A DNA stretch of 64,000 bases from Paracoccaceae bacterium (lineage in GTDB: Bacteria > Pseudomonadota > Alphaproteobacteria > Rhodobacterales > Rhodobacteraceae). The number at the start of each line of letters is the position of its first letter. Position 1 is the stretch's first letter. This document shows positions 4,196 through 61,973 of the stretch, piece by piece. The notes under the pieces were generated by a model. It saw only the letters and a list, made by a program, of their open reading frames with translations, was not told where the DNA came from and ran no database searches. Location: assembly GCA_023260655.1 (NCBI GenBank), contig JALQUU010000006.1, positions 1-64,000 of the forward strand, in the 5' to 3' direction. The position numbers were made by a program, and so were the translations under genes.

Positions 4196-6388
<2,193 letters not shown>

Positions 6389-6441
6389 GCCCAAGATTGA
6401 CAAACTTTGCCATAGAGCGCACCGTAATTGCGGAGGTGCCT

Positions 6442-6684
6442 ATGGCCACGATGAACGTCTCGCTTCCCGATCAGATGAAATCCTGGGCCGAAGAACAGGC
6501 CCAAGACGGGCGTTATGCCAATGTCAGCGATTATGTCCGTGACCTGATCCGCCGCGATCAGGAACGCCATGCAGCGATTGCCGAAATTCAAGCGCTTGTC
6601 GACGAAGCCTTGGAAAGCGGCCCCGCAGTGTCATTCGATGCCACCGCCTTCCTCGCCGCAAAGCGCGCAGGCCATGCCCGCTGA
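6442..6684 (+). CDS. parD: ParD-family antitoxin (ribbon-helix-helix)
   Basis: 80 residues starting MATMNVSLPDQMKSWAEE, the N-terminal beta-strand of the ribbon-helix-helix fold that binds DNA; YANVSDYVRDLIRRD follows as the dimer helix. The C-terminal part should wrap and neutralise the toxin. GGAGG lies 5 bp before the ATG at 6442. The stop overlaps the toxin start, so translation is coupled. ParD-type antitoxins repress their own operon; a -35-like TTGACA sits at 6397-6402, but I find no convincing -10. Confidence 0.92.
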   Translation: MATMNVSLPDQMKSWAEEQAQDGRYANVSDYVRDLIRRDQERHAAIAEIQALVDEALESGPAVSFDATAFLAAKRAGHAR

Positions 6685-6973
6685 ACTCCGGCTTACGCCC
6701 GCCGCACTGATCGACCTCGACATGATCTGGGAACGGACCGTCACGCGCTGGTCCGTCGAGCAAGCCGAAGCCTATATCCTCCAACTCAACGAGAGCTTTC
6801 GGCTCCTCTGCGACTTCCCGGAAATGGCGCGAGAACGAGCGGAAATCTCTCCGCCCATTCGCCTCCATCCAAGCGGTCGCCACCTCATTCTTTATCGCCT
6901 TGAGGCTGGGGCACTTGTCATCCTGCGAGTCGTCCATCAACGGCAGAACTGGTCGGCGTGGCTCTCGGAATAG
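6674..6973 (+). CDS. parE: ParE-family toxin (RelE/ParE superfamily)
   Basis: 99 residues. LRLTPAALIDLDMIWERT is the N-terminal RelE/ParE helix pair, and GRHLILYRLEAGALVILRVVH is the characteristic C-terminal beta-sheet region. ParE toxins poison DNA gyrase; this is known for the family and not shown here. The gene starts at 6674, 11 bp inside parD, the usual antitoxin-first layout. A copy of the dispersed 11-bp-periodic repeat begins 9 bp after its stop. Confidence 0.9.
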   Translation: MPAELRLTPAALIDLDMIWERTVTRWSVEQAEAYILQLNESFRLLCDFPEMARERAEISPPIRLHPSGRHLILYRLEAGALVILRVVHQRQNWSAWLSE

Positions 6974-6981
6974 CCGCACCA

Positions 6982-7043
6982 ACGTCATGACGCTTGCCAT
7001 ACGCAATCCAGACGCAATCCAGACGCGTCGGAAACGGGGTTTC
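6982..7043 (+). repeat. Dispersed 62-bp repeat with four 11-bp units, copy A
   Basis: The palindrome CGTCATGACG (6983-6992) is followed by four 11-bp units each ending in ACG: CTTGCCATACG, CAATCCAGACG, CAATCCAGACG, CGTCGGAAACG, then GGGGTTT. Nearly the same sequence occurs at 31165-31226 (minus) and 61902-61963 (plus), always between genes. Confidence 0.85.
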
Positions 7044-7169
7044 GCCCCGATTGTGCAGGTGCGGAAACCCCGTTACTTTGGGCCCATGGAACGGGAGTTT
7101 GCCATGGCCAGCCTTTTCACATCACCACGCGTGGCTTCGGCTGATGCCACAAGATATGGTGGTTGATCT

Positions 7170-31132: not shown

Positions 31133-31164
31133 TTTCCGCCGCGATTTCAGCCTGTTAACTTCTG

Positions 31165-31226
31165 AAAATCCCGTTTCCGAAGCGTATGGATTGCGTCTGG
31201 CAAGTGTATGGCTTGCGTCATGACGT
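31165..31226 (-). repeat. Dispersed 62-bp repeat with four 11-bp units, copy B
   Basis: On the minus strand: palindrome CGTCATGACG (31216-31225), then units CAAGCCATACA, CTTGCCAGACG, CAATCCATACG and CTTCGGAAACG down to 31172, followed by GGATTT. It is the reverse-oriented counterpart of 6982-7043 and 61902-61963 and lies between the transglycosylase and the convergent yghU gene. Confidence 0.85.
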
Positions 31227-42482: not shown

Positions 42483-42505
42483 TCGCTGTGCGAGCGGTTA
42501 CAGCT

Positions 42506-42580
42506 GGGGGGGCACGCCCCCCCGGACCCACGCGTTTAAAGCTGGGGGGCGCCGCCCCCCAGACCCCCCGGGGGATATTT
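42506..42580. repeat. Paired GC-rich hairpins ending in GGGGATATTT
   Basis: Hairpin 1: GGGGGGG, loop CACG, CCCCCCC (42506-42523). Hairpin 2: CTGGGGGG, loop CGCCG, CCCCCCAG (42542-42562). CCCCCCGGGGGATATTT follows. The GGGGATATTT end is shared with 20902-20911. Set between the binding-protein gene and the first permease, it may lower read-through so that the binding protein is made in excess. Confidence 0.6.
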
Positions 42581-61667: not shown

Positions 61668-61973
61668 CACGCCACTCGCTTCGCGGGAATTGAAGTGCTT
61701 GTGACACTTTATAGTCGAGATACGTGAATGCAATCGTCGGTAAAGTTGTCGATCATTTGATTTGTATCCAGCGACAACGTTTGAGGATTGATGCGTCGCT
61801 TTGCGGGGGTATTGGAAGACAGTTCGCCACCCACAGCATTCAAGCCAGCGCGACGGCCCGTTGCGCCCACCAGAGCCTTACCCCACCAGCCCAGCCAAAT
61901 CACGTCATGACACTTGCCATACGCAAGCCAGACGCAATCCATACGCTTCTGAAACGGGTTTTGGCCTGATTTC
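61668..61973. other. Spacer between the OLD-like gene and the carbonic anhydrase gene
   Basis: 306 bp without a supported gene. It contains the promoter region of the OLD-like gene (minus) and the dispersed repeat copy C at 61902-61963, which ends 10 bp before the carbonic anhydrase stop. Nothing else was recognised. Confidence 0.6.
61902..61963 (+). repeat. Dispersed 62-bp repeat with four 11-bp units, copy C
   Basis: CGTCATGACA (61903-61912), then CTTGCCATACG, CAAGCCAGACG, CAATCCATACG and CTTCTGAAACG to 61956, followed by GGTTTT. It differs from copy A (6982) and copy B (31165) at only a few positions, keeping the exact 11-bp spacing. Confidence 0.85.

Follow-up and report, generated by a model that had tools for sequence, protein, structure and literature searches.

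About 60 short DNA elements, each with a palindromic head, a run of 11-bp units and a tail, are dispersed at gene ends in the genome (G000) that contains the stretch of DNA analysed here (the window; 64,000 nucleotides), a Rhodobacteraceae MAG of 2.67 Mb in 265 contigs that is 77.5% complete. The first-pass annotation of the window described a three-copy repeat; the observation is confirmed as real, and is much larger than first described. A pattern with free NNN positions matches 58 copies in G000 (28 forward, 30 reverse), a lower bound given the incomplete genome, and the reversed pattern, run as a control over G000, matches none; in the window itself, a two-unit pattern gives 6 matches vs 0.04 in shuffled sequence. 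The prospect raised at the outset, that only three copies exist with none elsewhere, is clearly set aside by these 58 copies and by arrays in relatives. We tentatively favour, at somewhat less than an even chance, a reading of the sequences in which the elements would be helically phased arrays of half-sites for a putative sequence-specific gene-end protein that co-evolves with its sites. Short repeats between genes tend to be regarded as parasitic debris; in this abundant family the sites, palindrome, 11-bp spacing and unit core are constrained, and the unit is re-spelled in other lineages.

Anatomy of the element

Each element opens with the head palindrome CGTCATGACG, continues through two to four units of the form CNNNCCAKACR at exactly 11 bp, and passes via the tail CTTCGGAAA into G/T-rich DNA. 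Among 59 parsed G000 elements, the head is exactly CGTCATGACG in 48, and three units are present in 51. The head pairs two half-sites in inverted orientation (CGTCA/TGACG). Each unit is a direct half-site, with a consensus that differs by unit position: WWG-CCATACR in the first and CAATCCATACG in the last. Unit positions 2-3, in G000 and in its sister species G001, are AA, TT or AT, rarely others, and never TA. The window copies lie where they were first placed, at 6982-7043 (+), 31226-31165 (-) and 61902-61963 (+), and the repeats there match the earlier description; their parts are as follows.

6983..6992 (+), copy 1: head palindrome CGTCATGACG, the exact family head
6993..7025 (+), copy 1: three 11-bp units, CTTGCCATACG CAATCCAGACG CAATCCAGACG
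7026..7043 (+), copy 1: tail CGTCGGAAACGGGGTTTC; in the family consensus, CTTCGGAAA followed by G/T-rich sequence
31216..31225 (-), copy 2: head palindrome CGTCATGACG
31183..31215 (-), copy 2: three units, CAAGCCATACA CTTGCCAGACG CAATCCATACG
31165..31182 (-), copy 2: tail CTTCGGAAACGGGATTTT
31154..31159 (-), copy 2: flanking GTTAAC, +23 past the last unit, a distance common to numerous copies
61903..61912 (+), copy 3: imperfect head CGTCATGACA
61913..61945 (+), copy 3: three units, CTTGCCATACG CAAGCCAGACG CAATCCATACG
61946..61963 (+), copy 3: tail CTTCTGAAACGGGTTTTG

The initial account placed a 10-bp palindrome followed by four 11-bp units in every copy. The palindrome stands in copies 1 and 2 but is imperfect in copy 3 (CGTCATGACA), and the 11-bp spacing is exact, but the units number three. 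The supposed fourth unit, CKTCKGAAACG, ends in ACG in the window copies; because about half of the other copies have CTTCGGAAAT here, and because the block is displaced by exactly 11 bp in elements with two or four units, it is the tail. All three copies are intergenic, as had been stated: copy 1 is bordered by a ParE-toxin gene (parE) and by a waaA-like glycosyltransferase gene, copy 2 follows a GST gene and has a downstream ORF on its other side, and copy 3 follows a carbonic anhydrase gene and precedes an AAA-ATPase gene.

Outwards, the element reaches as far as GTTAAC motifs. These fall on its upstream side at -13, -24/-25 and -35, and on its downstream side at +23 to +26, +34 and +44. Beside elements, GTTAA/TTAAC is present at some 8-9 per kb, compared with 1.05 per kb overall at the same loci, an enrichment of about eight- to nine-fold. 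The phasing of these motifs is near-helical, with periods of 10-11 bp fitting about equally, so that 11 bp cannot be singled out as the period. At L021 (G000 C207:3909 and 4021) and L102 (G001 C78:5309 and 5389), two elements stand in tandem at a distance of about 80-112 bp, and L055, the G000 site matching the latter pair, carries a single element. An inverted repeat with perfect 11-bp arms, AACGGGGTTTC / GAAACCCCGTT, enclosing a loop of 20 nt (window 7033-7043 / 7064-7074), begins in the tail of copy 1, lies upstream of the waaA-like gene and is kept in G001 (L430).

Constraint, shared sites and lineage dialects

Across 16 orthologous sites in G000 and G001, the intergenic flanks differ at 14.9% of positions (275/1842) and the head and unit core at 1.3% (2/160) and 1.7% (5/288), respectively; the NNN unit positions (11.8%, 17/144) and tail (7.6%, 11/144) lie between. 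Either purifying selection or homogenisation among copies could account for the low divergence of head and core. At least 38 of 48 sampled G001 elements, and at least 27 of 51 sampled elements of a further relative, G003, occupy the same site as a G000 element (a preliminary count gave 24/30 and 18/30). The window copies are represented at G001 C302 (copy 1), G001 C691 (copy 2) and G003 C39 (copy 3), and several shared sites differ by whole units (L012/L112, L049/L106, L065/L116). Flank identity between G000 and G003 at shared sites is mostly 74-84%, and at these sites WWGCCATACR in the first unit gives way mostly to AAACCAGACG, and CAATCCATACG in the third mostly to TAAATCATACG. The CTTCGGAAA tail is lacking in G003, and its loss and the unit changes are concerted across shared sites. 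It is from this concerted re-spelling that we infer co-evolution of a protein and its sites; the alternatives would be homogenisation by gene conversion, or the repeated spread of new mobile families.

Exact matches to the pattern of the source genus were found in Pseudotabrizicola (mostly with four units), Donghicola, Pseudorhodobacter, Xinfangfangia and other Rhodobacteraceae. The three-unit CCAKACG pattern is present in 22 of 395 Rhodobacteraceae genomes, a survey in which most genomes are drafts and dialects far from those searched are missed; its counts, which are inflated by overlapping windows inside one array, reach at most 60/59 on the two strands. About 48 distinct loci are present in G202, a single-contig genome of the CCAKACG type. 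Outside the Rhodobacteraceae, the pattern gave two single matches only in approximately 380 alphaproteobacterial genomes. Upstream of lpdA, arrays with an 11-bp period occur in many genera with differing units, including CCAKACG in a dozen genomes, TCCGACG in G356, TATGYACG in G132, a TATGTAT-like unit in G090 and AAGARYTAYG in G004; in several genomes this region has no array. A sequence-blind self-match scan of seven samples from the family returned 15 places at lag 11, versus about 3 on average at the remaining lags not divisible by three, and 0 places in four alphaproteobacterial controls (400 kb). The contribution of each genome to the scan is thin (one or two arrays), except in G004, G090, G356 and the CCAKACG-type G202. 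Two dialects that depart from CCAKACG are strongly confirmed genome-wide: CCATACG-NNNNBCCGACR (GCCGACG) in G356, with 36/40 matches by strand (76 in total) over both contigs, and RAAGARYTAYG in G004, with 20/21 (41 in total), the reversed control giving 0 in each case. A search of a library of open-access papers found none on CGTCATGACG, CCATACGC or 11-bp repeats in Rhodobacteraceae.

Several further candidates were not retained. A replichore-polarised (KOPS-like) motif is at odds with the approximately equal forward and reverse counts, which are mixed along G202; GC skew from 20 sampled stretches is too noisy to place the origin. Regular domain spacing is unconvincing, with a CV of 0.74 in G202 (p=0.017 for regularity) and of 0.89 in G356 (not significant). 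As to a plasmid or phage origin, plasmid matches were none and phage matches were at chance level (E ~0.7). The partition factor proposed in the first-pass annotation likewise finds no support, as copies are spread across whole genomes on both strands.

Position behind genes and the proposed protein platform

Gene models from a home-made dicodon gene finder, with gaps of at least 60 bp as background, place 18 G000 elements in convergent, 4 in divergent and 34 in co-directional gaps (background 7, 28 and 53). Convergent gaps are thus over-represented (OR 5.5, p=5e-4) and divergent gaps under-represented (OR 0.16, p=4e-4). The median distance of the elements to gene 3' ends is 48 bp, compared with 115 bp to 5' ends. 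Among the 18 classifiable copies in G202 the convergent excess is absent. In co-directional gaps, the ratio of sense to antisense elements is 21:13 in G000 (not significant), 11:2 in G001 and 5:7 in G003. RNA folding of the elements gave no signal on either strand (z +0.41 and +0.09), and this, together with the weak orientation bias of 21:13, argues for an element that acts as DNA rather than as RNA.

The interpretation given in the first-pass annotation is partly supported: its proposal of a protein bound to one face of the DNA is still the best reading of the 11-bp phasing, the whole-unit steps, the constrained palindrome and core, and the lack of an RNA fold signal. The 11-bp steps, the inverted head followed by direct half-sites, the constraint and the weak orientation bias similarly suggest that such a protein would read duplex DNA. 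Each element may then serve as a platform for a putative sequence-specific DNA-binding protein, with a dimer seated on the inverted half-sites of the head and further subunits binding cooperatively on the direct half-sites CCAKACG, one per 11 bp, along one face towards the A/T-rich tail; the outer edges might be marked by the GTTAAC motifs in the same register. The gene-end position suggests that the complex, situated behind gene 3' ends and preferably between convergent genes, could form a boundary for transcription or supercoiling. The specificity of the protein and the spelling of the unit would co-evolve, so that lineages would differ in dialect at sites that are in part shared. A broader formulation, in which a family-specific gene-end boundary system of Rhodobacteraceae would comprise a fast-evolving putative protein and 50-100 sites that shift specificity together, with the dialects of different genera lying at orthologous positions, is possible but in our view rather doubtful. 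Against the platform, a factor with 50-100 sites should rarely switch specificity, and frequent dialect change is therefore unexpected; further, a convergent preference is known from pneumococcal short repeats too, where it is taken to show that parasitic insertions are tolerated (PMC3049150), G202 lacks the convergent excess, and several synteny breaks at element edges would also suit recombination or mobility.

Known protein-site systems offer partial parallels. The chromosome-organising sites matS, Noc and SlmA are short, protein-bound and dispersed, with tens per chromosome, but are single short palindromes of conserved consensus, whereas the elements here are arrays in phase, their core is specific to the genus, and the protein is putative. 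The stoperators of mycobacteriophages are numerous and scattered; these asymmetric binding sites halt transcription elongation (PMC9283540). They are, however, phage-borne single sites, in contrast to the arrays on bacterial chromosomes described here, which lack a strong orientation bias. If a protein is responsible, it would add a new chromosome factor, acting genome-wide, to those of a large, ecologically important bacterial family; if it and dozens of sites have changed specificity jointly, the family would constitute a natural experiment in such change. Should both the boundary and co-evolution readings hold, they would point to genome-wide protein-site co-evolution in bacteria, and to an unknown layer of chromosome organisation. 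The dialects would make such a recognition code testable through comparison and unit swaps.

Competing explanations

That the elements are non-autonomous MITE- or BOX-like repeats, copied in trans by an array-binding transposase and tolerated behind genes, we consider unlikely, but deserving of attention. Each genus would then harbour a separate family of recent amplification, and the sharing of sites would stem from insertion preference or old insertions. The BOX repeats of Streptococcus pneumoniae prefer convergent genes, a pattern interpreted as tolerance towards parasites; their modules of tens of bp fold into stem-loops, and a likeness to insertion-sequence ends has been proposed (PMC3049150). 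The present elements resemble BOX in that head and tail modules surround a variable number of tandem units, in their dispersal and in their over-representation between convergent genes, but differ in that the unit is 11 bp (one helical turn), that no stem-loop fold is seen, and that orthologous sites are re-spelled by lineage. REP/BIME and REPIN repeats are likewise intergenic and present in tens of copies, but REPs are imperfect hairpins (PMC3116915), whereas the present element does not fold. The tandem double elements at L021 and L102, two G003 elements that join the flanks of different G000 elements, and genes gained or exchanged at the head edge would all suit mobility. A mobile element was also among the original suggestions, but most sites are common to relatives (at least 38/48 and 27/51), concerted re-spelling in place goes beyond transposition alone, and no terminal inverted repeat, hairpin or surrounding longer transposon was seen. 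The flanking GTTAAC is itself palindromic and stands at variable distance, and no clean empty sites were found, the sole candidate for an element-free site (L466) being a rearrangement.

OmpR/PhoB-type regulators occupy direct repeats, spaced by about 11 bp, in a head-to-tail arrangement, and their operators are usually well conserved. It is less probable again that the elements are operators of a global regulator of this type, although exact 11-bp direct half-sites, usable in tandem as in the operators of this class including those of CtrA, a flanking GTTAAC in near-helical register and a conserved position before lpdA in many genera would fit. The CtrA consensus, TTAA-N7-TTAAC (as quoted in PMC4046655), has a spacing equal to an 11-bp repeat. 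Such operators lie at promoters, however, whereas the elements lie near gene 3' ends and avoid divergent promoter regions; moreover, the palindromic head is atypical, the unit core is not TTAA, and it varies between genera.

It is improbable, in our estimation, that the elements are sites of programmed or illegitimate recombination, in which the array would bind a recombinase and genes would be gained, lost or rearranged on the head side. The gap between uvrB and copy 1 (window 6385-6982) is nonetheless suggestive, as it holds parDE in G000, an unrelated gene in G001 (L430) and no gene in G003 (L072), where uvrB is only 119 bp from the element; homology between G000 and G001 resumes 3 bp before the head. 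A 730-bp insert lies to the left of L049, and where one flank only is kept, it is the right in 11 cases and the left in 2, such that breaks fall mostly on the head side. The G003 elements L072 and L451 are mosaics, each combining the left flank of one G000 site with the right flank of another. But of 44 control flanks, 9 likewise show a break within about 1.4 kb, leaving just a roughly two-fold excess at elements, G000/G001 sites are nearly all collinear, 32 of 39 on both flanks, and 60-bp repeats can recombine by ordinary homology. A synteny break is seen also at G000 L005 / G001 L466, and the left side of a gyrA-linked element is altered in G001.

An RNA-level element (a terminator, or a site of processing or protein binding within leaders or 3' UTRs) would suit the gene-end position and the mild sense bias of G000 and G001, but is the explanation we find hardest to credit, given the flat fold scores on both strands, an Rfam 15 search of the window with no match above the gathering score, the 5 sense to 7 antisense elements of G003, and ordinary hairpin terminators beside several copies.

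Two other repeats were seen. A second dispersed sequence, hairpin-like and approximately GGGGGCTCTGCCCCCCGnCTTCGCCTCCCCCCGGGATATTT (from L005), has 90-96% matches at about 8 further places in G001 and G003, and a similar sequence lies upstream of lpdA in G005, G006, G066 and G218. In the window, positions 42494-42569 hold two head-to-tail 38-bp repeats rich in G-runs and C-runs (GCGGTTACAGCTGGGGGGG...CCCCCC).
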